IMG/VR virus record: IMGVR_UViG_3300025030_000068
Span: 25,929 to 89,928 of that record
Length of the DNA: 64,000 bases
Direction: 5' to 3' (one strand)
Origin: a virus
Part shown: positions 250 through 62,290 of the stretch, one piece after another
How the letters are laid out: every line of letters begins with the position of its first letter
How positions within the stretch are numbered: the stretch's first letter is position 1
The notes under the pieces: generated by a model
Told to the model about the DNA's origin: nothing
Database searches by the model: none
The model's input: the letters and a program-made list of their open reading frames with translations, nothing else
Made by a program: the position numbers and the translations under genes

Positions 250-425
250 GGCTGGCATCCTTTCCCGACATGGCCGCAGTAGCCTTTTCCGGTGAGTTCC
301 CGCTTGATGTGGGGCTGCGCCGGGGTGGTGTACTCCTCCTGCCATGCCATGCAGTTGTCCGCTACGCAGCGGCGGTCCTGTGTGCAGCAGTGCCTCTTTC
401 TGGCCTCGTCCGGGGTGTGGGTCAT
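246..425 (-). CDS. Small cysteine-rich protein, 59 aa
   Basis: Opens with MTHTPDEARKRHCC and contains six cysteines (13, 14, 20, 25, 50, 57), suggesting a small metal-binding fold. It overlaps the stop of the methyltransferase gene (ATGAC) at its start and the next gene at its end, typical of a tightly coupled phage operon. Function is unknown. It was too short for ordinary ORF cut-offs; the coupled overlaps are the main support. Confidence 0.6.
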   Translation of the reverse strand: MTHTPDEARKRHCCTQDRRCVADNCMAWQEEYTTPAQPHIKRELTGKGYCGHVGKGCQP

Positions 426-1927
426 TTCTTCCTCGCTTTCTGCACTTCACTGAATGGCGTCATGCTTCCGTCCTGATTCATGAGTTGCGGCTCTTCTTGG
501 CAGTATTCGAAATAGCGCTGGAGGCTGCTCTGGACGTAGGCCGTGGACAGCTCAATCCCACGATATCTGCGTCCGGTCTTGCGGCAAGCGATCAACGTTG
601 TGCCACTGCCGTTGAAGAGATCGATGACAATCTCCCCGTACTGGCTGCTGGCATAGATGCAGCGCTCGACCAGGCGTACTGGCTTCATTGTTGGGTGGTC
701 GGGGGACTTGTGGGGCTTGTCGATTCTGATCACTGTGGTCGGTTCCCGTAGGCGGAGTTCCTTGGCAATTTTGATCAGCTCCGGCTTGGAGAGCTTGGTG
801 ATGTCGATATCGTCGTCTATGACGGTCGTTTGCGAGAAATCGCCGCTGAAGTAGTGGGCGGCTCCTTCTTTCCAGCCGTAGAGTATCGGCTCGTGCTGCC
901 AATTATAGTCTTGGCGGCCCAGTGCAGCAGAGTTCTTAATCCAAACAAGGCATTGCTTAATCAGTAATATGGGGGCACTATTAATTGCCTTCCTGAAAGT
1001 TGTTCCGAGGTTGGCGGTATCCGCATGTGCGACATAAAAGCAACCTCCTGGTTTCAACGCATGACTCATCGAAGTGAATGCTCCGAGCAGAAACTCCTCA
1101 AACAAAGAATCTGTCATTTTGTCATTCTTTATGCCCTGTTCATCCGTCCGTTTATGTTGACTCCTTGGCTTCGCTCGATTCTCGTTGTGCTGGACGTCCA
1201 CGTTGTAAGGAGGATCAGTCCAACAAAGATCCGCCTTCTCCCCATTCATTATGCGTTCGACATCTGCGATCGATGTGCTGTCGCCGCAAAGCAGCCGATG
1301 GTCGCCTCCGCCGAGTACCCACAAGTCCCCCAGCTTCACGAACGGTTCCTCGACGGGTTCGACGACGGCATCCTCGTCTCCAGTCGGGTCCGGCTTATTC
1401 AGCCCCAGAAGTTCGTCGATCTCTTCCTGATTAAACCCGGTGAGGTTCATGTCGTAGCCGGTCTCGACAAGCTCCTGCATGAGCTGCGCGAGGAGGTCGT
1501 CGTCGAACTCTCCGCCGTGCCGATTTGCAGCTATATTCGCCGATTTTTCCTTTTGTTCATCCCACTCAACCTCCCGGTAGTTGAAGCGACCGTCTGGAGT
1601 GTCGATGTATCCGCTGGCGACCGTTCCCGCCTTGTCCGTGACCGCTTCCTTAACGATTGGCCAGCTGGGATCGAGGTTTTTAACACGCTGATGTCCACCA
1701 ACAAGTCTTCCGGTTCGGATGTTGAAAACGATAGAACCTAATTCGCCGAACTCCTTCATAGCGTCACGGAGCATATGAAGTTTTTCCGGGGAAATCCGGC
1801 GGGGGTTGTACCCGCTGGGCCGCAAATCGCTAATAGATGTCGGCACCAGTTCTTTTGCTGCTGTTGTTAGGTTGTCTACGGTCCTATCTGCGTTTGACAC
1901 CGCGCTTTTTCTTTTTTGCGTCGCCAT
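422..1927 (-). CDS. ParB-domain / DNA methyltransferase fusion, 501 aa
   Basis: The N-terminal ~90 residues form a ParB/Srx-like domain (SDLRPSGYNPR and GGHQR, residues ~32-81). The C-terminal half is an N6-adenine or N4-cytosine methyltransferase of the beta order: catalytic DPPY at ~238-241, followed near residue 440 by the S-adenosylmethionine-binding motif DLFNGSGTT. This two-domain architecture is common in phages and prophages and is thought to modify phage DNA against restriction; the ParB domain may help recognise DNA. It heads a short coupled run of small genes downstream. Specificity cannot be read from sequence. Confidence 0.93.
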   Translation of the reverse strand: MATQKRKSAVSNADRTVDNLTTAAKELVPTSISDLRPSGYNPRRISPEKLHMLRDAMKEFGELGSIVFNIRTGRLVGGHQRVKNLDPSWPIVKEAVTDKAGTVASGYIDTPDGRFNYREVEWDEQKEKSANIAANRHGGEFDDDLLAQLMQELVETGYDMNLTGFNQEEIDELLGLNKPDPTGDEDAVVEPVEEPFVKLGDLWVLGGGDHRLLCGDSTSIADVERIMNGEKADLCWTDPPYNVDVQHNENRAKPRSQHKRTDEQGIKNDKMTDSLFEEFLLGAFTSMSHALKPGGCFYVAHADTANLGTTFRKAINSAPILLIKQCLVWIKNSAALGRQDYNWQHEPILYGWKEGAAHYFSGDFSQTTVIDDDIDITKLSKPELIKIAKELRLREPTTVIRIDKPHKSPDHPTMKPVRLVERCIYASSQYGEIVIDLFNGSGTTLIACRKTGRRYRGIELSTAYVQSSLQRYFEYCQEEPQLMNQDGSMTPFSEVQKARKK

Positions 1928-7414: not shown

Positions 7415-7431
7415 CCGTTCCCTATGTCAAA
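7415..7431 (+). promoter_or_regulatory. 17-bp operator-like motif, site 2
   Basis: Copy of GTGTTCCCTATRTCRAA (two mismatches at the 5' end) in the gap between the HTH regulator and the integrase, ending eight bases before the likely integrase ATG. Confidence 0.72.
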
Positions 7432-7438
7432 GGTTTTT

Positions 7439-8623
7439 ATGGCGAAAATTTACGCGCACAAACAGCACGGGTGGCAGTTGCGTTTCACCATCTATTTTGC
7501 TGAACAAAAGGTCGTCCGCTACCGCTTCAGCCGGTCTCGCGACGAGATGTATTCCATGCACCGGGCAGCGGAAATGCTGGAACTCGCCAGCCGTCGCTGT
7601 GACGCCTCTTTCCGTGAGGTGGAGGTCGCCGTCAACCTCGGTCTGATCTCCAGTTCCGAGGCGGTCCTGCTGACTGGCGGAAAACGATCGTCGTCCTATG
7701 ATCTTGATCTGGTCATGGAGCGCTGGTCGGTCTCCTCCTCGTTGCTCAACTCCCCCTACGGTCATGGAGTCAACCTGCGGCGTGGTGTCCGTCTGCGCCT
7801 CTGGCTGGAAGCGAACCCGATCCCGACGCTCGACGACGCTGCCGTGAAGAGATATATCCAGAGGCGCCGAGACGGGCTGCTGACCTATCCCCATCCCCGG
7901 ACCGGGATCACCGTCGTCGGCTGTTCGACCAAGACCATCACCAATGAGCTGCAGGTGCTACGGGCGATCATTGACGAGGCCGTGAAGCTCAAGATGGTCG
8001 ACATGAACGTGGCTCGGTCTGTCGATCTCCCGGTGAAGAAGTCAAAGTTTCGACGGTCCATGTCGATGGATGAGGTTTCGGCGCTCCTTGAAGCCGCCCA
8101 GCAGTCTCGGCACCTCTGTCATGGGTATGCGGTCGAGGTCTTGTCCTGTGCTGTCTATGCTGGCCTGCGGCGCTCGGAGATTCGGACCCTGCAGTGGCGC
8201 GACATCGACTTCGACAATGGTCGTATCCGGATCGTGCAGAAGGCGGTACCGGGCGAGGATGATTTTATCCCCAAGGGTGGCAATGCCGGCGTGACGACGC
8301 TGCCGGATCGCCTTGCCGAGATTCTTGAGCAGGTAGAGCGCAAGGGGGAGTGGGTCTTCGGTGGAGAGAAGCCGCTGGTTCTTACCGCGTTTTGGCAACT
8401 TTTCAAGGAGGTGGCGTCCCGTGCCGGGCTCCCCTCGGATTTGTCGCTCCATCACGCTCGCCATACCTACGGGTCGTGGCTGCTCCGCATGACCGGCGAT
8501 CTGTCGTATGTTCAGTCCGAAATGCGGCATACCGATATCAACACGACGCGGAACTACATGCATACGACCGCCTCGGAAAAACCGGCCCGGCTGCTCGACT
8601 TCGGCATCAAAAAAAAGGATTAA
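7439..8623 (+). CDS. int: Tyrosine-family phage integrase, 394 aa
   Basis: Site-specific recombinase joining attP to attB. The catalytic set is visible: Arg in GLRRSEIRTL (~244), HxxR in LHHARHTYG (~338-341), His in MRHTDINTT (~364) and the nucleophile Tyr in RNYMHTT (~373). The N-terminus is an arm-binding domain. ATG 7439 is preferred because the ATG at 7424 lies within the repeated operator-like motif. The gene is followed directly by attP with paired arm-type repeats. Confidence 0.95.
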   Translation: MAKIYAHKQHGWQLRFTIYFAEQKVVRYRFSRSRDEMYSMHRAAEMLELASRRCDASFREVEVAVNLGLISSSEAVLLTGGKRSSSYDLDLVMERWSVSSSLLNSPYGHGVNLRRGVRLRLWLEANPIPTLDDAAVKRYIQRRRDGLLTYPHPRTGITVVGCSTKTITNELQVLRAIIDEAVKLKMVDMNVARSVDLPVKKSKFRRSMSMDEVSALLEAAQQSRHLCHGYAVEVLSCAVYAGLRRSEIRTLQWRDIDFDNGRIRIVQKAVPGEDDFIPKGGNAGVTTLPDRLAEILEQVERKGEWVFGGEKPLVLTAFWQLFKEVASRAGLPSDLSLHHARHTYGSWLLRMTGDLSYVQSEMRHTDINTTRNYMHTTASEKPARLLDFGIKKKD

Positions 8624-8657
8624 ATGGTGGGCGGGCAATCGGATTTTTTTGGGCGTT

Positions 8658-8675
8658 TTGGTAGTTCTTTGGTAG
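8658..8675 (+). repeat. Left paired arm-type integrase sites
   Basis: Two direct repeats TTGGTAG at 8658-8664 and 8669-8675, exactly 11 bp apart (one helical turn), between the integrase stop and the attP core. Confidence 0.6.
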
Positions 8676-8725
8676 CTCGTTTTATGCGTTCCTCTTTTCT
8701 CTTTAATTCCAAGTTCTTGCAAAAA

Positions 8726-8759
8726 GTCCGCGCGGGTTCGATTCCCGCAGGGATCACCA
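8726..8759 (+). other. attP: attP core: 3' end of a tRNA gene
   Basis: The sequence contains a T-arm (GCGGG, loop TTCGATT, CCCGC at 8732-8748) followed by AGGGATCA and CCA at 8757-8759. This is the last ~30 bases of a tRNA gene, the usual identity segment that restores the host tRNA on integration. No acceptor 5' half, D-arm or anticodon arm is present, so it is not a functional tRNA. Phage genes continue on both sides, so this is attP rather than attL or attR. Confidence 0.82.
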
Positions 8760-8769
8760 GTTAACCGCT

Positions 8770-8841
8770 ATAAAAGCCACATATAAAGTTGCAGTTTTCT
8801 TTGCTTTTTTGCGTAGATACCGACTTGACAGTGGCTTTTAT
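8770..8841. repeat. Inverted repeat in the attP right arm
   Basis: ATAAAAGCCAC (8770-8780) is repeated in inverted form as GTGGCTTTTAT (8831-8841). It may bind integrase, excisionase or a host bending factor, or act as a weak terminator. The rest of 8624-8936 shows no gene. Confidence 0.5.
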
Positions 8842-8896
8842 GGTTTTATCATTCTTTTGTATAGGGATCGATTAAGGCTTATTGTAGCCGAGAAGC

Positions 8897-25798: not shown

Positions 25799-28045
25799 TT
25801 ATTGGCCCCGTGGGGCGCGGATGATGATGTTGCCGTTGCGGTCGTTATGGGTGATAGGGTTGCCGAGGCGGTCAAGAGTGTTGGTAGCTATAAAATAATC
25901 AACAATGTTGTACGAAGCACCTGCAATGGATATTGTCGCCGCTACATCCTCCTCCCCCCATCCAGCGGGGAGAGACAACGGATTAGCTGTAATCATCCCA
26001 TCCAGCCTAACAGTGACCCCCATTAACCCCTCCAATACCCAGCGGATAAACTCGGCATCAGCACTCCATGTATAGGAACCATAGGTGGTTGTTTCGGGGT
26101 AGAACGAAATGCGGCCAGTTTCGGGCACATCAAACGGACAGACCCATGAGGCGTAGGAGCGGGCGGGGCTCCTCAGTCGTGCTTCTGTTTTTGCCCAGAT
26201 AAAGAATAACTCCGGCCACCCCTGTTCATAGTAGCCATTCCCAAACGCATCTGGAAGTGCTTGAATAGCGTTATAAGGCCCAGTGCGATAGCCATAAGTA
26301 TGGTCAAGAATGCTTATATCAGAGGACACTCCAGACTGAATCGCCCACGCCAATCCGTCGGGCTGCAAATCATCAATCGTAGAATTAACAAACGCACCAT
26401 TAACCCAAAAACGCCGATACAAATTATTCGTGGCGTCGAACCATTCTGAACTCTGCAAAATGGCTTTCACAGCATCGGCTCGACTGGTATAGGTGGCGGC
26501 CAGAGTCGGATTACCCTCGTGTGTCAGGATTTCCGCCATCCTTCGGCACGCCATGATGTAGCAGCACGATCCCTGAAACGCCTTCGAGTTTGGGGGCGTT
26601 GCTCCTGTCAACCACTCGCCTCCATAAACGTCATCCCAGTCATGGGTGCGAATCAAGCCACCATTACGGTTAGCATGGAGAAAATCGAGGGCGGCTAATG
26701 CGTGGTTGAGAATCGTTCTTGTTCCAGTGGTCTCTGCCAAAAAATCAAAATCTTGTGAATAGCAGAGGTAATTGTAGAGACACATCACAAACATCATCTC
26801 GTTGTAGGCGGATGAATAGTCGTGATAGCCAGAGGGGATCGAGTAAGAAACCTCGACCGCCATCTGCCCACTGGCGGATTGAATCTCCGATAGAGCGGCG
26901 ATCTCTGACTTAACTGGGGCATAATCCCCCAACATTAACAGCACATTTTGCATGGGATAGGACTGGTGGATTCTGTTGTGGATATATTCCCAGAAGCGAG
27001 CTCCCGAAACCGGATGATTGTGGATCTGTGGCCCCCCATGCCAAAAGGCCTTTTTCGTTGGGTCAAACCATTGGTGCGTCAGTGCCCCGTAGATATTGGC
27101 AATAGCGTAGCGCATGTAATCGTTGATTTTTTGGTTTGGAGTCTGTAGTGCCAGATTGTCAAACCAGCCGTCGATAGTGGCAATCTCCTCGGCATACCAT
27201 TGATCCAGCCCGTAGGTTTCCAACTCCTGCATTCCTGTAGTCAGTAAGGTTGCAGAATTAGTCACGTTTGCATAGACCACTCCGAAGAGCATGTAAGCGG
27301 TTGCCGTCTGGCCAGCGGGGATCGTTAAAGATACTTTGCCCGCAAAACAGGGGGCCGCGCCCGTATAAGATGAGGTATTAGACAAAGCCCCAGCTAAGGC
27401 GGAAGGGTTAGCATCGCCCCCTGCCCCAAAGAAGGTTGCCGCGTTAGTTTCCCACTCCGTCATGCCGGGGATGTAACACGTTTGGCGATGATCCATCGGA
27501 ACATCGAACGGTTCATCCTCAATGATAATTTCGTTGACGATGGTGCGGAGCGATGTCAAGAAATCCGTGCTTTTTGTCGCACTGGTTCCGAATAGTTCCA
27601 GGATCGGATAAAGGTTGATCTCCCGCTGAACCGTATCGTTATTTGTAATCGCCAGCCGTGAAACGACTATCGGTTTTTCCCGGTGGCAAATATCATTCTG
27701 TTCAAAATCCAGAGCACCGACCGTGAAACGGATTGCGGTTCTTTTCGGCTGATAAACACAGCGCCAGTTGGTCATAACTGCTGAATGTAGTGCGTGGTTG
27801 GTTGAGTAGGGATCGTTAGTGCCTTCCTTAATGTACCAACTTCGCCCCTGCAAAAACTCCCATGACACCCCCGCATCACTATTCGCCCCATCTGTCGATA
27901 GTTGGGAGACATCACCATGCGCGACCAGCCCCGCCGAACCGTTAGAATGCGGGTGATACATAAAATAGGGATTACCAAGGGGAAAGTCCGGCCACGCAGC
28001 CGAGTCCTCCCAAACTAATCCATGTTCAGCGGCGTCAAAAATCAT
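25799..28045 (-). CDS. Glycoside hydrolase-like (alpha/alpha)6-barrel protein, 748 aa
   Basis: The N-terminal ~280 residues look like a beta-sandwich; the rest is helical with many Trp/Tyr, as in six-hairpin glycosidases/phosphorylases (GH15, GH63, GH94-like). Near residue 467 the segment THDWDDVYGGEW resembles the catalytic-acid loop DWNDG of GH94. Later NGYYEQGWPELFF and FPD-rich loops fit a sugar cleft. Coupled by four bases to the tailspike upstream, so likely a virion or secreted enzyme attacking host surface glycans. Family assignment is tentative. Confidence 0.6.
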   Translation of the reverse strand: MIFDAAEHGLVWEDSAAWPDFPLGNPYFMYHPHSNGSAGLVAHGDVSQLSTDGANSDAGVSWEFLQGRSWYIKEGTNDPYSTNHALHSAVMTNWRCVYQPKRTAIRFTVGALDFEQNDICHREKPIVVSRLAITNNDTVQREINLYPILELFGTSATKSTDFLTSLRTIVNEIIIEDEPFDVPMDHRQTCYIPGMTEWETNAATFFGAGGDANPSALAGALSNTSSYTGAAPCFAGKVSLTIPAGQTATAYMLFGVVYANVTNSATLLTTGMQELETYGLDQWYAEEIATIDGWFDNLALQTPNQKINDYMRYAIANIYGALTHQWFDPTKKAFWHGGPQIHNHPVSGARFWEYIHNRIHQSYPMQNVLLMLGDYAPVKSEIAALSEIQSASGQMAVEVSYSIPSGYHDYSSAYNEMMFVMCLYNYLCYSQDFDFLAETTGTRTILNHALAALDFLHANRNGGLIRTHDWDDVYGGEWLTGATPPNSKAFQGSCCYIMACRRMAEILTHEGNPTLAATYTSRADAVKAILQSSEWFDATNNLYRRFWVNGAFVNSTIDDLQPDGLAWAIQSGVSSDISILDHTYGYRTGPYNAIQALPDAFGNGYYEQGWPELFFIWAKTEARLRSPARSYASWVCPFDVPETGRISFYPETTTYGSYTWSADAEFIRWVLEGLMGVTVRLDGMITANPLSLPAGWGEEDVAATISIAGASYNIVDYFIATNTLDRLGNPITHNDRNGNIIIRAPRGQ

Positions 28046-38000: not shown

Positions 38001-39902
38001 TCATGCGACCAGCAGCCGCATTTGTTCCGGATTTGACCTGCCCACCAGCTTGCAGCGCACGTCGACATAAAGGCTGATCCCCTCGGTCTGGAACGAGGAT
38101 TCCAGCACGCTCTCGACGCGCGGGTCTTGCAGGACCGCCAGCTCGGCCTCGAACAGCGCCCGCTCCTGCCACATCTCGTTGCTGATCTTCCCGACGATTT
38201 CCGGCAGCCGGGAGCCGTAGCCTTCGTGGCTCAACTGCTTCAGCTCGCCGCGAGTGGTGGCAATGCGGTGGCGGATCGCCATCTCCAGATTAGCGATGCC
38301 GCCGACGGTGGCGATGTCTCCCGATGGGGTGGCGACCATGAACCCGTCGGCGTCGAGCAGTTCGTCGATGCCGTAGGCACTCTCTTCAAAGGTGCTGCCG
38401 GCAGAGGCGAAGTTCTGTCCGATCGTGGTACCGGGGATGCGGACGGACTCTCCGGCAATCAGGATCGAGTAGCGGTCGGCATGGGTGCTGATCGGGGTGC
38501 CGGCAAGGATGTCGACGATCAGTTCTTCGGTCAGGGTCACAGTCGTGTCATCCACTGCCGCGACTTCTGCGAAAATGTCCCCGACGCTGATGGTGTCGGC
38601 ATTCGCTCGAAACAGGATGATCTCGCCCGGCAGGATGGACCCGTCGAAGGTGGCAACCTCAATCGTCCGGCTGCCGGCATAGGCGGTGTCGAGGACCGTG
38701 CCGAAGTAAAGAGCCGGGGAATAACGGTCCTCCTCGGTCTGGCCAATGTAGGGAAACGTCAGGCCGTTGATGGCGACGACGTCCTGCCAGCGGACGTTGT
38801 TCTTTCCGGCAACAGTCTGGATGGTGTCGCCATCGGTCAGGGCAATCTCGGTGGCGGAGAGGAGGACGGTCTCCTGCGTGTTACTGAACAGCGATTCTTC
38901 CGGGACTGTTTCACTGGCGATCGTGCTGTCGAGGATTGATGCTCCGGTGAGGATTTCCGGGTTGTCGCTGGCAGACAGGGTGCCCGATCTCTCCGGGATC
39001 ACGGTGGTCTCGATAAAGAGCTGCTCTTCCGCCTTGAGGGAGAGTAGCGCCCGCTCAACGTCGCGGAGTCCTCGCGTAATTTCGTGCGGGATGTCGGAGA
39101 AGCTGGAGATCGTGTGAATGATCGCCTGCGTGGCGTTGATCGTGGAGACGACCAGCGAGAAGGCGACGTTGATGACCTTGGAGACGCCATTGCGGAGGGC
39201 CGTGACCGCTGTCGAGATCGCCTTGACGTTGGCTTCGACCGTCGCCATGACCGTGAGGACCGTACTGACGACGCTCATGACAGCGGCATAGGCGTTCAGC
39301 GCCTTCATCAGCCAACCGGTCTTTGCCGGCAGGGTTCCGAAGTTGAAGTAAATGCTGATCATCGCCTGCTCATCGATCGACGGCAGGATGCGACCGAGGA
39401 CGGTCATGTCGAGATTGTACTGGTACATCATTCGCCGCTGGATATCTTTGGTCAGCGTGAACTGATTGAGCTGAACCCGGAAGTAGTCGCGGTTGCAGTA
39501 ATCGTAAAAGTGGAGGACGGGCTTCTTGGCACCAAGGGGCTTCTTGTTTTCAGCCCCATAGATATCGTAGGCCGCGAACTGAGCATGGAAGTCGGCAAAG
39601 ATCGCTTCCAGTTCCAGAAACAGGGCGAGGCCGGTCTTCTTATCCCCGGCCAGATGAACGGCTCCCGATCCGGGGTATTTCGTCCCTCGGATGCCGAAGA
39701 CGCCGCTGATCTTGATCTTCGGGATGCCGTAGCCGACATTGTCCTCGAATGCCCCTGCCTTGGTCATGGTGACGCTGGCACGCGTCGGGCGCGACAGCGT
39801 ATAGGACTCCGGGTTGATCGGGAGAATGTACTGGTTCTCGATGATCCCTCGGTCGTCCAAGACCTCGAACATGAACGGCAGTTTTTGTCTGCTGGCAGGC
39901 AT
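38001..39902 (-). CDS. Fused baseplate protein: hub-adjacent domain + LysM + gp25 wedge, 633 aa
   Basis: Three parts: residues ~1-200 (LPINPESYTLSRPTRASVT) resemble T4 gp53/LysM-type baseplate proteins; a LysM-like segment near 350-400 (DGDTIQTVAGKNNVRWQDVVAINGL) that normally binds peptidoglycan-like or baseplate structures; and residues ~535-633 (LEMAIRHRIATTRGELKQLSHEGYG), a GPW/gp25 wedge domain usually encoded separately. A long helical central region is also present. One polypeptide apparently replaces two or three baseplate genes. Confidence 0.8.
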   Translation of the reverse strand: MPASRQKLPFMFEVLDDRGIIENQYILPINPESYTLSRPTRASVTMTKAGAFEDNVGYGIPKIKISGVFGIRGTKYPGSGAVHLAGDKKTGLALFLELEAIFADFHAQFAAYDIYGAENKKPLGAKKPVLHFYDYCNRDYFRVQLNQFTLTKDIQRRMMYQYNLDMTVLGRILPSIDEQAMISIYFNFGTLPAKTGWLMKALNAYAAVMSVVSTVLTVMATVEANVKAISTAVTALRNGVSKVINVAFSLVVSTINATQAIIHTISSFSDIPHEITRGLRDVERALLSLKAEEQLFIETTVIPERSGTLSASDNPEILTGASILDSTIASETVPEESLFSNTQETVLLSATEIALTDGDTIQTVAGKNNVRWQDVVAINGLTFPYIGQTEEDRYSPALYFGTVLDTAYAGSRTIEVATFDGSILPGEIILFRANADTISVGDIFAEVAAVDDTTVTLTEELIVDILAGTPISTHADRYSILIAGESVRIPGTTIGQNFASAGSTFEESAYGIDELLDADGFMVATPSGDIATVGGIANLEMAIRHRIATTRGELKQLSHEGYGSRLPEIVGKISNEMWQERALFEAELAVLQDPRVESVLESSFQTEGISLYVDVRCKLVGRSNPEQMRLLVA

Positions 39903-41060: not shown

Positions 41061-41185
41061 ACCTGCTCAACACAGGGACTGGACCGGCTACCGCACCCGT
41101 CAGTATTGCGGTATTTTTACGCCCTGCATTTAGAAAGGATGCCGGGAAGGACAGGGAATATCCAATACCTGTCGCAGCCGTCCAT
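41061..41185 (+). ncRNA. c4: C4-type antisense RNA, module A
   Basis: Folds as a cloverleaf: closing stem GGAC-GGCT / AGCC-GTCC (41081-41089 / 41176-41183), hairpin ACCGCA / TGCGGT (41090-41112) and hairpin GACAGG / CCTGTC (41150-41173). Two single-stranded segments are complementary to a contiguous downstream target: TCAACACAG (41067-41075) to 41188-41196, and GGATGCCGGGAAG (41137-41149) to 41198-41210 (13 of 13 pairs). This matches phage P1/P7 C4 RNAs (Rfam C4 family), which hold back icd-ant translation. Strong support comes from compensatory changes in the paralogue at 47.1 kb. Confidence 0.85.
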
Positions 41186-41187
41186 TG

Positions 41188-41210
41188 CTGTGTTGAACTT
41201 CCCGGCATCC
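41188..41210 (+). promoter_or_regulatory. C4 RNA target site, module A
   Basis: Contiguous a and b target sequences upstream of the first ORF. TGTTGA within it (41191-41196) can instead pair with TCAACA at 41224-41229 beside the ribosome-binding site, a competing fold. Confidence 0.75.
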
Positions 41211-47105: not shown

Positions 47106-47235
47106 ACCTGCTGAACACAGGGACACAACCCGGCCCGCACTCGTTAGCTTTGCGGTATTTTTATGTCCGGCGCTTTGAAAGGCGTGCCGGGATGGGCGAG
47201 GAATATATTGAATACTCGCCGCAGCTTGGTTGTTC
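47106..47235 (+). ncRNA. c4: C4-type antisense RNA, module B
   Basis: Same fold as the module A RNA with different sequence: closing stem ACAACC / GGTTGT (47125-47130 / 47228-47233), hairpin CCGCA / TGCGG (47135-47155), hairpin GGCGAG / CTCGCC (47195-47220) around GAATAT...AATA. Segments TGAACACAG (47112-47120) and GTGCCGGGATG (47184-47194) are fully complementary to the downstream target 47237-47257. Differences from module A preserve pairing (for example C-G to G-C and A-U to U-A). Confidence 0.85.
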
Positions 47236-47236
47236 G

Positions 47237-47257
47237 CTGTGTTCAACATCCCGGCAC
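47237..47257 (+). promoter_or_regulatory. C4 RNA target site, module B
   Basis: a-target CTGTGTTCA followed by b-target CATCCCGGCAC. TGTTCA (47240-47245) can also pair with TGAACA at 47273-47278, which overlaps the AGGAG of the Icd-like ORF. Confidence 0.75.
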
Positions 47258-58777: not shown

Positions 58778-58807
58778 GAAACCACCAGTTAACCGGGGTT
58801 TCTTTTC
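58778..58807 (+). terminator. Terminator-like hairpin repeat, copy 4
   Basis: GAAACC ... GGTTTC stem with TTTTC tail; here no plus-strand gene precedes it, so it acts in a 5' leader rather than ending an operon. Confidence 0.6.
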
Positions 58808-58866
58808 CTTTATGAAGGGATGATCCTTCCTCTTTCGGATGCGCCAGCGGGCGCTTGGAGGTTCTT

Positions 58867-59016
58867 ATGTTGTCTGTTTGCGGGTACATCAAAGGTCGTC
58901 GCCATTTTTTCTTCTCTGTTACCGACGCCGCCGCAGCCGGTGCTATCGGGGTCTATGTCCTCGGCGCTCCTCTCGATCCTAATTCTGTTCTCTCCTCAGA
59001 ATGGGGGTGGAAATGA
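58867..59016 (+). CDS. Small protein, 49 aa
   Basis: MLSVCGYIKGRRHFFFSVTDAAAAGAIGVYVL..., with GGAGG upstream and a stop overlapping the next ATG (ATGA). No recognised family; first gene of a short plus-strand operon. Confidence 0.65.
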   Translation: MLSVCGYIKGRRHFFFSVTDAAAAGAIGVYVLGAPLDPNSVLSSEWGWK

Positions 59017-59336: not shown

Positions 59337-59536
59337 CGGCTCCTCGCATCCAGTCCCTCTCCTGCTGCTGCTGCGGTAACTCGACCCTTGGCCGCCAGTG
59401 GTGGAATCGCGATACCGGCTTCGGCCTCTGCGACAACTGCATTACTTTCGTCGGGGACGCTGATGTCCCTGTTGGTGAAACCGCTCAAAGCTACGGCATC
59501 CGTGGCTTCCACTACGATGTCTCGAAAGGAGTTTGA
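59333..59536 (+). CDS. Zinc-ribbon protein, 67 aa
   Basis: LSCCCCGNSTLGRQWW ... LCDNCITF: two cysteine pairs making a zinc ribbon. Overlaps the preceding gene by four bases. Function unknown. Confidence 0.7.
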   Translation: MTAPRIQSLSCCCCGNSTLGRQWWNRDTGFGLCDNCITFVGDADVPVGETAQSYGIRGFHYDVSKGV

Positions 59537-59538
59537 TC

Positions 59539-59715
59539 ATGTATTGTGCTCGACGTGTTCCCCATAGTAAAATGTCCATTGGCCATTACCTCATGGTCGC
59601 CATCCTGATCGTCTTGATCGCGATCATCCTCTGCCAGTTGCCGCATGCTATCGATGTGGAGCTGGATATGTCCGACGCCTCTGCCCAGCGCAATCAGGCG
59701 CAATCTTCGAATTGA
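59539..59715 (+). CDS. Single-pass membrane protein, 58 aa
   Basis: G-HYLMVAILIVLIAIILCQLPHA forms one membrane helix. ATG 59539 has AAAGGAG; an alternative start at 59572 would leave the embedded operator-like motif in the leader. Unknown function. Confidence 0.62.
   Translation: MYCARRVPHSKMSIGHYLMVAILIVLIAIILCQLPHAIDVELDMSDASAQRNQAQSSN
59555..59571 (+). promoter_or_regulatory. 17-bp operator-like motif, site 16
   Basis: GTGTTCCCCATAGTAAA, 14 of 17; overlaps the first codons of the membrane-protein gene if the upstream start is used. Confidence 0.6.
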
Positions 59716-59728
59716 AAGGAGACTTGCC

Positions 59729-59875
59729 ATGCACCGACCTGTTCCAAAGCGGATCATTCGCGATCCCGTCTTCCGCTGCCACCTCTGCATGTTTACGACC
59801 AGGTGGCGGCCAGAGTATGTTAGTCATATTGTAATGCATCAGCGAGTTGCGGCAGAATCGGCGAAGACGCCATAA
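59729..59875 (+). CDS. C2H2-type zinc-finger protein, 48 aa
   Basis: FRCHLCMFTTRWRPEYVSHIVMH is a single C2H2 finger. AAAGGAG precedes the ATG. Its stop codon lies inside the first attC site, so either it was the gene of an earlier cassette or the cassette array landed at its end. Confidence 0.7.
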   Translation: MHRPVPKRIIRDPVFRCHLCMFTTRWRPEYVSHIVMHQRVAAESAKTP

Positions 59876-59925
59876 CGCCCCTGAACTGTACGGCGCAAAG
59901 CGACCGGACGAGTGATTTGTTAGAC
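59868..59925 (+). repeat. attC: attC-like site 1
   Basis: R'' CGCCATAAC, imperfect stem ACTGT-CGGCGC / GCG-CCG-AC-AGT with unpaired bases around 59886-59913, then R' GTTAGAC (59919-59925; insertion point after G59919). Confidence 0.72.
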
Positions 59926-59943
59926 ATCAGAACGGAGACGAGA

Positions 59944-60318
59944 ATGAGCGGATTATTTTACCTGCAAGACAAGAGGTCATACGTCGGCAATGACATGCTC
60001 TTCTGGGCAGAGAGTGGCGGATATACCACAGACTTAAGGAAATCCGAGGTGATGACCAAAGAAGAAGCCTTCGCACAAAATCGGTGTAGATCAACCGACA
60101 TACCTTGGCCGAAGGAGTATATCGACGCGAGGGCAAGACCGGCTGTCGATATGCAGTATGTGAATATAAGGGAAGCGTTGCAGGACGTTGACGGCGAATT
60201 GTATGTTGAACCTAAGCCGCCACGGGAGATTTTTAAGTGCTACCACTGTGGGAAATTTATATCTGAGCGTGAGTCTTATTCTACATGCCCTCACTGTGAC
60301 GGCAGCAATCATCATTGA
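59944..60318 (+). CDS. Cassette 1 protein with C-terminal zinc ribbon, 124 aa
   Basis: N-terminal ~90 residues are unrecognised; the end FKCYHCGKFISERESYSTCPHCDG is a four-cysteine zinc ribbon. GGAGACGAG precedes ATG 59944, 24 bases after the cassette boundary, and the stop is two bases before attC, the usual compact cassette layout. Role unknown. Confidence 0.78.
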   Translation: MSGLFYLQDKRSYVGNDMLFWAESGGYTTDLRKSEVMTKEEAFAQNRCRSTDIPWPKEYIDARARPAVDMQYVNIREALQDVDGELYVEPKPPREIFKCYHCGKFISERESYSTCPHCDGSNHH

Positions 60319-60319
60319 T

Positions 60320-60374
60320 GTCTAACGATTTCAACTAAGCGGTGCGTAGCATCCGGTTCAGTGGGTGTTATGGC
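60320..60374 (+). repeat. attC: attC-like site 2
   Basis: R'' GTCTAAC (60320-60326) complementary to the cassette 1 start, stem CAACTAAGCGG / CCGGTTCAGTG with extrahelical bases, R' GTTATGGC (60367-60374). Confidence 0.78.
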
Positions 60375-60389
60375 GCGGGAGGTAGAAGG

Positions 60390-60641
60390 ATGGAAACCGA
60401 AACATTGGAACGACTCAGAAATAATATTTTGACGGCAAAAATTGAGATGGAAGAAGAACTCGAAATGAGATGGCCGAAAGGGTCGAGGGTAAACGTACTG
60501 TTGAATTGTCGGCAGACCATACCGACCACAGGAGTAGTCGTCGGCCACGATGGTCGCGGGTTTGTCCGTGTTCGGATCGACAGTGCAAAAGAACGTAGTC
60601 GGCGTGGGTGTCGGGATGTTTATTTCACTGAGATGCGTTGA
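60390..60641 (+). CDS. Cassette 2 protein, 83 aa
   Basis: METETLERLRNNILTAKIEMEEELEMRW: helical N-terminus, then a small beta part (TIPTTGVVVGHDGRGFVRVRID) resembling an SH3-like strand set. No family recognised. Starts 22 bases after the cassette boundary. Confidence 0.75.
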   Translation: METETLERLRNNILTAKIEMEEELEMRWPKGSRVNVLLNCRQTIPTTGVVVGHDGRGFVRVRIDSAKERSRRGCRDVYFTEMR

Positions 60642-60750
60642 GCGCTATAACGGGCCATGATCAGCGGACCGCGACGACAGGCCGCAACCCGCTGAGATTT
60701 TCGAGAGTAGCAGAGAGTTATTCGGTCCGCCTGGATCTTTTGGTTGTGTG
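60642..60750 (+). repeat. attC: attC-like site 3 (109 bp)
   Basis: R'' GCGCTATAAC (60642-60651), L'' GATCAGCGGACCG (60659-60671), long variable loop, L' CGGTCCGCCTGGATC (60723-60737, complementary with two unpaired bases), R' GTTGTGTG (60743-60750). Confidence 0.75.
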
Positions 60751-60772
60751 CCGGTTTTGTAGGATGGATGAA

Positions 60773-61468
60773 ATGATAGATCTTCTGAACGTCGACTGTA
60801 TGGAATATCTGAAAGGCTGCGCTAACAACGCTTTTGATTTGGCGATTGTTGACCCGCCTTATGGTCTAGGTGAGGACGGCGGAACCAATAGGTGCCACGG
60901 AGTAAAGCAGAAAAACGGGACAGTGCTCCGCTGTCTTGATGGTGGATACCAGAAAAAGGCATGGGACAAGGAGACGCCGGCCCCTGAATATTTCGCCGAG
61001 TTGAAACGAGTGGCGAAGCATCAAATTATATGGGGAGTAAATTACTACCCCGTGGCGCTGCCGGGTGGCCGGATCATCTGGGACAAGGTAAACGACGGGG
61101 CCGACCAGTGCGGAGCCGAGATAGCTTACAACAGCCTGAATGAGCGGGTGGACATCGTGCGCTATATGTGGCGCGGAATGATGCAAGGGGTTTCGGTTGC
61201 TCGAGGAACTGTGCAGCAGGGCAACAAGGCACTCAACGAAAAGCGGATACACCCGACGCAGAAGCCAGTGAAGTTGTATTCCTGGCTGCTGGAAACCTAC
61301 GCCGCAAAGGGGTGGCGGGTAGTTGACACCCACCTTGGGAGCGGAAGCGCTGCAGTGGCCGCGCATTATTTCGGTTGTGATTTTGTGGGCTGCGAAATCG
61401 ACCACGATTATTACGAGGCGGCGAAGAGACGCTTTGAAGAGGACACGCGGCAAATCGCCATGTTTTGA
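60773..61468 (+). CDS. Cassette 3 DNA adenine methyltransferase, 231 aa
   Basis: Catalytic DPPY in LAIVDPPYGLGEDGG (~25-28), target-region core, then HPTQKPVKLYSWLLETY and the S-adenosylmethionine motif DTHLGSGS near residue 180 (beta order). ATG 60773 is used for its AGGATG spacing; 60764 is an alternative. Such stand-alone methyltransferases are frequent cassette cargo and protect DNA from restriction. Independent of the ParB-fused enzyme at the left end. Confidence 0.88.
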   Translation: MIDLLNVDCMEYLKGCANNAFDLAIVDPPYGLGEDGGTNRCHGVKQKNGTVLRCLDGGYQKKAWDKETPAPEYFAELKRVAKHQIIWGVNYYPVALPGGRIIWDKVNDGADQCGAEIAYNSLNERVDIVRYMWRGMMQGVSVARGTVQQGNKALNEKRIHPTQKPVKLYSWLLETYAAKGWRVVDTHLGSGSAAVAAHYFGCDFVGCEIDHDYYEAAKRRFEEDTRQIAMF

Positions 61469-61524
61469 GGCGCACAACGCTATAGCATCACCGGCTCCGT
61501 CCGGTGCATAGCGTTGGTTGTGCG
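61469..61524 (+). repeat. attC: attC-like site 4
   Basis: R'' GGCGCACAAC, stem with CGCTAT ... CACCGG / CCGGTG ... ATAGCG, and R' GTTGTGCG (61517-61524). Terminal site; no further cassette with matching ends follows. Confidence 0.75.
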
Positions 61525-61560
61525 AGCCCTAAATTATTTTAAAATAATGTCGTTTTCCTG

Positions 61561-61589
61561 TTGACACCGTACAATGTACGGGCTATAGT
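61561..61589 (+). promoter_or_regulatory. Sigma-70 promoter with embedded palindromic operator
   Basis: TTGACA (61561-61566), 17-base spacer, TATAGT (61584-61589). The spacer contains CCGTACAATGTACGG (61567-61581), a perfect 7-1-7 palindrome, so a repressor would sit between the two boxes. Confidence 0.85.
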
Positions 61590-61633
61590 TAAATCACAAC
61601 AGAGGAAAACAAACCCCAAACAGGAGAAACGAC

Positions 61634-61933
61634 ATGAAATACAAAATCCAGAGTCGCAAACAGGAAAATTGGTTCAGCAACGAGTTGGTGACGGAAACTG
61701 TCAGGACTGTCACCGTGCAGGGCGTGACGATGAGCATCCCGGAATCGATCGCTAGCCAGCCGCTGCAAATTCAGTGGGCGCATCAGCACGGCGGGAACAT
61801 CAAACCGGCCGGAGTGACTAACGGATATTTGGTTCTCGCTGGCCAGGCGAGAGACATGACGGACATCGGTATAAACAAATATCAAGGGGATTTTTGCCAC
61901 ATTGATGGCGAATATCTCGTAATCGAGAAATGA
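61634..61933 (+). CDS. Uncharacterised protein behind the palindromic promoter, 99 aa
   Basis: MKYKIQSRKQENWFSNELVTETVRTVTVQG...; beta-rich, no family. ACAGGAG precedes the ATG. Forms a two-gene unit with the HTH gene; this is the layout of a self-regulated maintenance or toxin-antitoxin pair, but neither protein matches a known toxin. Confidence 0.7.
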   Translation: MKYKIQSRKQENWFSNELVTETVRTVTVQGVTMSIPESIASQPLQIQWAHQHGGNIKPAGVTNGYLVLAGQARDMTDIGINKYQGDFCHIDGEYLVIEK

Positions 61934-61934
61934 T

Positions 61935-62111
61935 ATGACGTTGGCGGAGTTCAAGGAGGCTCAGGGCAACCTGGGCCTCACCAACGAGGCAATGGCCGAC
62001 CTGCTGTGCTGCTCTCTACGGCTGGTCGAAAAAATACGACAGGGTGAGCGGGCAGTGTCCGCCCGCACATCACGGATGATTGAACGCGAGTTACAGCAGC
62101 GCGGCGAGTAG
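61935..62111 (+). CDS. Small helix-turn-helix protein, 58 aa
   Basis: MTLAEFKEAQGNLGLTNEAMADLLCCSLRLVEKIRQGERAVSARTSRMIERELQQRGE: XRE-like helix-turn-helix. Starts one base after the preceding gene's stop. A likely repressor of the palindromic operator at 61567. 62112-62245 downstream shows no clear gene. Confidence 0.72.
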   Translation: MTLAEFKEAQGNLGLTNEAMADLLCCSLRLVEKIRQGERAVSARTSRMIERELQQRGE

Positions 62112-62245
62112 GCCGCCCAACTACTGATTATACAGACCGTTCGGCAGTCTAACAACTTGTCTTAATAAATGGCGGATACCTAAAACAATCGCACAGTTAA
62201 TTCTGCTTCCGGCGGATAACGGAATCACGAAAGGCCGCCAATTGC

Positions 62246-62290
62246 AAAAAAGGCCCCACACCGGCACAGGGCTGGTGTGGGGCCTTTTTT
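62246..62290. terminator. Bidirectional terminator
   Basis: AAAAAAGGCCCCACACCGGC paired with GCTGGTGTGGGGCCTTTTTT; separates the plus-strand island from leftward structural genes. Confidence 0.9.

Follow-up and report, generated by a model that had tools for sequence, protein, structure and literature searches.

A virus of ~90 kb very likely harbors a phage-type integron in the form of a cassette array with no integrase gene of its own, an arrangement that would depend on a candidate attI site and on an integrase provided in trans. This array extends from position 59870 to 62121 of the window, by which we mean the whole 64,000-nucleotide stretch of DNA analysed (positions 25,929 to 89,928 of IMG/VR record IMGVR_UViG_3300025030_000068, hereafter G000), and it includes four attC sites and an attI-like right border. 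Integrons are familiar from bacteria, where they capture genes, and those present in phages have been treated as occasional captures.

The array resides in a phage genome

The record that holds the window is 89,928 bases long. A second assembly, G002, is 99.99% identical to G000 and bridges its two ends, which indicates a circularly permuted genome that is either complete or has redundant termini. The near-identity of the two also means that the array is no assembly chimera, and phage DNA is found on either side of it. Genes encoded by G000 include those for a tail sheath, a major head (capsid) protein, baseplate and tail-fibre proteins, and a DnaB-like helicase. A further gene (window 422-1927) encodes a DNA methyltransferase with a fused ParB-like domain.

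A phage tyrosine integrase gene (7424..8623, plus strand; phrog_1, 6.8e-43) is closely followed by a tRNA 3′ end, GTCCGCGCGGGTTCGATTCCCGCAGGGATCACCA (8726..8759, plus strand), which is the likely attP. Given this pair and the structural genes above, the virus is probably a temperate myophage. This enzyme was rejected as a candidate IntI, since it yields 47 bits with TIGR02249, for which the cut-off is 265. It is the sole tyrosine recombinase, and a check of G000 in which TIGR02249 scores were at most 28.6 bits bears out the original prediction that the phage has no integron integrase. ARAGORN reported no tRNA genes in G000. No exact match to the attP tRNA 3′ end was present among the searched GTDB species genomes, and hence no host was found by this approach; a host search with a capsid-protease profile returned Bacillota only, by a weak match.

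Other repeated elements are also evident. Repeats of ~80-95 bp reside upstream of several genes in G000 and in a relative, G001 (window 58780-58872; G000 6835, 11620 and 14923), and perhaps serve as phage promoters. Two diverged elements of 134-138 bp (window 41065-41198 and 47110-47247) carry long inverted ends, CTCAACACAGGGAC.. and ..TGTGTTGAAC, and are ~66% alike over ~500 bp.

attC sites are detected at the array and nowhere else in the genome

We searched for attC sites with a phage-independent covariance model (R1) built from 12 class 1 integron attC sites of annotated plasmids. When applied to 328 kb, this model recovered the known sites as well as two sites in the published phage TJE1. 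Matches above 13 bits in G000 are restricted to sites 1 and 4, and those in G001, which is ~87% identical to G000 overall, to three array sites. Among genomes G000 to G008, R1 matches are confined to array sites, also when searched genome by genome.

All four sites of the window are assigned to the minus strand. Site 1 (59870-59925, CCATAAC..GTTAGAC) scores 23.3 bits and has its crossover at CCATAA|C, between 59875 and 59876, and site 4 (61472-61523, GCACAAC..GTTGTGC) scores 20.0 bits on the minus strand versus 3.8 on the plus strand. With filters off, site 2 (60320-60374, GTCTAAC..GTTATGG) yields 11.9 bits versus 5.8, and further attC sites of G001 yield 11-14 bits. Site 3 (60645-60751, CTATAAC..GTTGTGT) is unusually long at ~107 bp and was assigned by its sequence and fold; R1 does not detect it, and its counterpart in another phage, G045, scores 27.6 bits. 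The presence of attC-type integron cassettes in a phage genome, as originally predicted, is thus upheld by a model check that finds sites on the minus strand of the array and nothing elsewhere in the 90-kb genome. No Rfam family matches these sites, and the exact attC string of G001 is absent from every other viral contig. A home-made scan for R and L boxes failed to separate the sites from dinucleotide shuffles and was abandoned in favor of the covariance model.

R″ (RYYYAAC) and R′ (GTTRRRY) boxes are present at the cassette junctions, and the cassette ends quoted in the prediction are right. Across 12 cassettes from two phages, 42 of 48 variable positions are complementary between the ends, compared to a permutation mean of 23.6 (p ~5e-5). 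If cassette B2, which was picked partly by its complementarity, is set aside, the count is 38 of 44.

These characteristics bear on the proposal that the stem-loops do not serve recombination and instead terminate transcription or are hairpins of some other kind between genes. Such a function would be consistent with the location of the array in a plus-strand operon that is closed by a hairpin near 62250, and with a remark in Qi et al. 2023 (PMC9892861) that attC sites can be weak terminators. However, the matches are strand-specific and come from a model trained on real attC sites, pairing occurs between the two ends of a cassette beyond that within each stem, homology ends exactly at the crossover, and sites of this kind are linked to intI on other contigs. 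The cassette turnover at R-box positions described below refutes the terminator proposal, which we consider extremely improbable.

attC polarity opposes the direction of the cassette genes

Every good R1 match in the phages is to the minus strand, opposite to the plus-strand cassette genes, and each site in G000 and G001 that scores on both strands scores higher on the minus strand. Integron cassette genes usually lie on the strand given by attC polarity, although this does not define integrons, and the genes of this array depart from the usual placement. The complementarity of cassette ends is blind to attC direction. Conserved phage genes to the left of the array (59533..59875, plus strand) have ~77% nucleotide identity to G001 up to position 59877. 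This shared flank runs to GCCATAACG (59877), with the break at GCCATAA|CG, where a crossover of minus polarity (RYYYAA|C) is expected, and the attC bodies beyond it differ. If polarity followed the genes, the first attC body would be shared along with the flank, and the fact that it differs indicates minus-strand polarity. Gene-wise polarity, as assumed originally, was therefore discarded, since it is opposed both by the minus-strand scores and by the left homology break.

With minus-strand polarity, a cassette unit consists of an attC body and the gene to its right, and thus the array holds four cassettes. The four attC sites proposed earlier are retained, but the three single-ORF units are not: there is a fourth cassette, at 61478-62120, that carries two ORFs.

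This geometry also argues against capture by the phage of part of a chromosomal integron from a bacterium, with cassettes in the ordinary orientation, of the type reported for Vibrio prophages. Precedent for such a capture is found within Qi et al. 2023, and the R″ and R′ boxes fit. However, the homologues of the window cassettes are phage proteins, and the closest copy of cassette 3 belongs to a different phage, making this origin quite improbable.

Gene content of the four cassettes

Cassette 1 (59876-60325) carries a plus-strand ORF of 124 aa (59944..60318; phrog_2457, 3.5e-26) with a Shine-Dalgarno sequence and an ATG located 18 nt past the attC site. Its homologues are in Pseudomonas phages F116, Jeremy and Dolphis; MW202545, which also holds a homologue, gave a single weak attC match (16 bits, E 0.8). 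Cassette 2 (60326-60650) carries an 83-aa ORF on the plus strand (60390..60641), likewise with a Shine-Dalgarno sequence and starting 15 nt past attC, for which no Pfam match was found. The product of cassette 3 (60651-61477; ORF 60764..61468, plus strand) is a 234-aa N6/N4 DNA methyltransferase (PF01555, 1.2e-16; phrog_23224, 1e-57).

The ends of cassette 4, GTTGTGC and GCCCAAC, agree at 6 of 7 positions. A sigma-70-like sequence, TTGACA..TATAGT, was noted by eye just 5′ of its first plus-strand ORF (61634..61933, 99 aa), and the second (61935..62111, plus strand) encodes a 58-aa helix-turn-helix protein with weak matches to phrog_25770 (9e-5) and HTH_31 (0.004). These two ORFs may form a regulator pair or a toxin-antitoxin system, where the choice of toxin-antitoxin would be a guess.

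Cassette turnover has its breaks at the predicted crossover base

In G001, the closest relative, the locus of the G000 array also has attC sites but holds another cassette, with an 87-aa ORF, and so the comparison with related phages does not refute the original prediction. Elsewhere, G001 carries a second array, comprising about seven cassettes with small ORFs, where G000 has ~50 bp and no array. A more distant genome, L006 (~70% nucleotide identity), retains the flanks of the array, and the R1 model finds no attC at the locus.

A copy of cassette 3 is present in an unrelated phage, G045 (locus L060), where it is 88% identical at the amino acid level and 82% at the nucleotide level. It is preceded by the minus-strand attC mentioned above, which matches site 3 in length; the stem arms of the two sites have different sequences, and each is self-complementary as judged by eye and by folding. 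Homology between the cassettes stops at 61478, which is the predicted crossover. Downstream of the methyltransferase gene, G045 has a short sequence at the attI position and then intI (327 bits), whereas G000 has another attC. Methyltransferase homologues in L063 and L073 start right behind minus-strand attC sites. Collectively, these observations point to gene cassettes being traded between phages, with breaks at the crossover base both on the left, between G000 and G001, and on the right, between the window and G045.

An alternative is that the array is a fossil, wherein an ancestral phage integron lost intI and the differences between G000 and G001 arose by ordinary homologous recombination with other phages. 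The absence of intI from G000-G002 would be explained in this manner, as would the imperfect end complementarity in three of the four window cassettes and the degraded border stem in G000. However, the two edges of the array and that of the methyltransferase cassette all have their breakpoints precisely at RYYYAA|C, the swapped cassettes lack long flanking homology, and whole arrays have been gained or lost between close relatives. We therefore judge a fossil array to be unlikely, and favor one that is served by an integrase in trans.

The right border resembles sequences beside phage integron integrase genes

The border of the array (62115..62242) reads GTATAATCAGTAG|TT on the minus strand and includes a 124-bp segment with 82% identity to G001 38837-38959. 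The second array of G001 ends with this segment as well, and the first array of G001 shares only ~20 bp of the border. A core, AACNNCTGATTA, has one occurrence in G000 and two in G001, all of them at array ends, when 0.1-0.2 are expected per genome. On the minus strand, the three array ends of these two phages have the core TAATCAGNNG|TT in common.

Among viral contigs, a 19-base version of the border led to L097/L105, where it is positioned just upstream of a true integron integrase gene (TIGR02249 344.9 bits, cut-off 265). In both L105 and L107, the core precedes intI by 65-76 bp; the L107 integrase is 64% identical to that of L097/L105, and the core position of L107 is occupied by GCATAACTACTGATTATC. 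Several more phage intI genes are associated with core variants such as TAACAATGATTATC. Contigs that bear these intI genes also carry phage genes, including those for terminase and head protease (L105), head protease (L106), and tape measure, baseplate and tail-fibre proteins (L107). Matches to the 19-base pattern in L098, L099, L101, L103 and L104 look like chance occurrences in AT-rich DNA and were disregarded. Relative to bacterial IntI proteins, the L105 integrase (7713-8876) has a C-terminus that is longer by ~50 residues and a single additional residue beside the first catalytic arginine.

Because it matches sequence beside phage intI genes, the border is probably an attI, one that would belong to the integrase group represented by L105 and L107. 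An alternative reading is that the border is a degenerate terminal attC half-site. If it is indeed attI, the cassette genes point toward it, and consequently a Pc promoter located there would be antisense to them.

Inverted cassettes are common among viral integrons

A search with five integron integrases revealed integron-integrase-like proteins from many clades on at least 80 viral contigs (L105-L184), where it should be considered that IMG/VR contigs can be misassigned and that hallmark phage genes are present on many, not all, of the contigs with intI. Among the contigs listed, nearly all attC matches have the canonical side and strand with respect to intI, with L114 as the main exception. 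Gene orientation was called from the Shine-Dalgarno-led gene beside each attC site, an approach that replaced a longest-ORF test that is noisy in GC-rich contigs. Viral sites are inverted rather than standard by 78 to 8, compared to 2 versus 15 for bacterial controls (Fisher 1.4e-10), and among loci, classed by the majority of their sites, the counts are 34 versus 1 for viruses (35 resolved) and 1 versus 6 for bacteria, where the control comprises 8 loci from plasmid and phage records, some of which also trained the attC model. The genes of the intI-bearing bacterial controls L053, L054 and L055 lie mostly along attC polarity. Standard orientation is seen at 8 of 86 resolved viral sites, and in phages TJE1 and L114.

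Published phages include all classes, as evident by MW202573 (inverted), PH101/H101 (mixed) and TJE1 (standard). In the CALIN of PH101/H101 (L047 25919-27987), some cassettes appear to hold one gene per strand, judging by eye from unannotated plus-strand ORFs that lie beside annotated minus-strand genes.

The viral contigs that carry intI or attC share one terminase family in 12 of 40 cases, and a portal gene is present on 3 of 28 contigs tested. In a tree of integrases, the viral proteins among the matches listed fall into many supported clades, and IntI1 is sister to a viral clade of 21 members, a placement made with thin bacterial sampling that permits no direction of transfer to be inferred.

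Discussion

For the G000 array, the sites, their polarity, the complementary ends, the turnover in relatives, the attI-like border and the shared cassette are observed, whereas recombination, transcription, and which IntI acts and where it comes from are inferred. Read along the minus strand, the order is the attI-like site (62121), the four cassettes, and the left flank (59875), where each cassette consists of an attC body and then a plus-strand gene that points toward the attI-like site and against attC polarity. An integron integrase acting in trans would cut the single-stranded attC hairpins at RYYYAA|C (minus-strand G|TT), and could originate from the host or from a different phage or prophage that has a related attI, of the kind seen in L105 and L107. 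Cassettes would then enter at attI or be swapped at attC, and the folded single strands needed might be exposed by phage replication or injection. All cassettes would be read by the plus-strand operon of the phage in place of an integron Pc promoter. Genes that face the phage operon would be retained, because transcription would come from the phage and none from a Pc at attI.

Phage-borne cassettes themselves are not new: an established description, of which the original prediction was unaware, is available. Qi et al. 2023 (PMC9892861) describe phage CALINs (clusters of attC lacking integrase), including those of virulent phages, methyltransferase cassettes, and phage attC sites, some of which IntI1 recombines in assays. 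As with these CALINs, the G000 array has attC-flanked small ORFs and an orphan methyltransferase and no intI, in this case in a myophage. Unlike them, it also exhibits a border resembling attI, homology to intI-encoding phages, turnover of cassettes between close relatives, and genes that are consistently inverted against attC. When the phages of that study were re-examined, MW202573 and PH101/H101 proved to be inverted or partly so, a feature that goes undiscussed in the relevant portions of PMC9892861.

Typical bacterial integrons (class 1, Vibrio, Shewanella) and the phage arrays are alike in attC structure, in polarity relative to attI and intI, and in a TIGR02249 integrase. However, in bacteria the cassette genes are directed away from attI and controlled by Pc, whereas those of the phage arrays run toward attI, in the same direction as intI. 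The reverse integrons of Treponema and a few other bacteria (PMC6557892, PMC3607928) have intI transcribed toward attI and cassettes directed away from it. Although intI and the cassette genes are co-directional in these bacteria as they are on the phage contigs, the latter have intI directed away from attI (the core being upstream of intI in L105 and L107) and cassettes directed toward it, which constitutes a third arrangement. Complete integrons carried by prophages (Vibrio MK672802, Shewanella M16-3, and P1 with a class 1 integron), which an account within PMC9892861 traces to bacterial integrons, resemble the phage intI contigs by having intI, attI and attC inside a phage genome, but the Vibrio and Shewanella examples, as checked, keep the standard gene orientation. 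We found no account of the inverted geometry or of the phage-encoded integrase group in the open-access literature searched; within it, both features appear to be undescribed, with priority uncertain.

More tentatively, and with somewhat less than even confidence, we propose that phages own a broad integron family with this third architecture, in which cassettes point toward attI and are co-directional with intI. Such a family might let unrelated phages trade their accessory genes, anti-restriction methyltransferases among them, and might serve intI-less phages in trans, whereas mobile bacterial integrases of the IntI1 type may be relatives of the viral pool. Protection of phage DNA from restriction has been suggested for similar methyltransferase cassettes in a passage of Qi et al. 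2023, and by analogy the orphan methyltransferase cargo of G000 could act in this way.

If this view is correct, site-specific shuffling would offer a route by which counter-defence genes are swapped among phages, and viral genomes would constitute a reservoir on which bacterial integrons can draw. The function of phage IntI, attI and attC components, their action in trans between co-infecting phages, and the origin of mobile integron integrases would all become testable.
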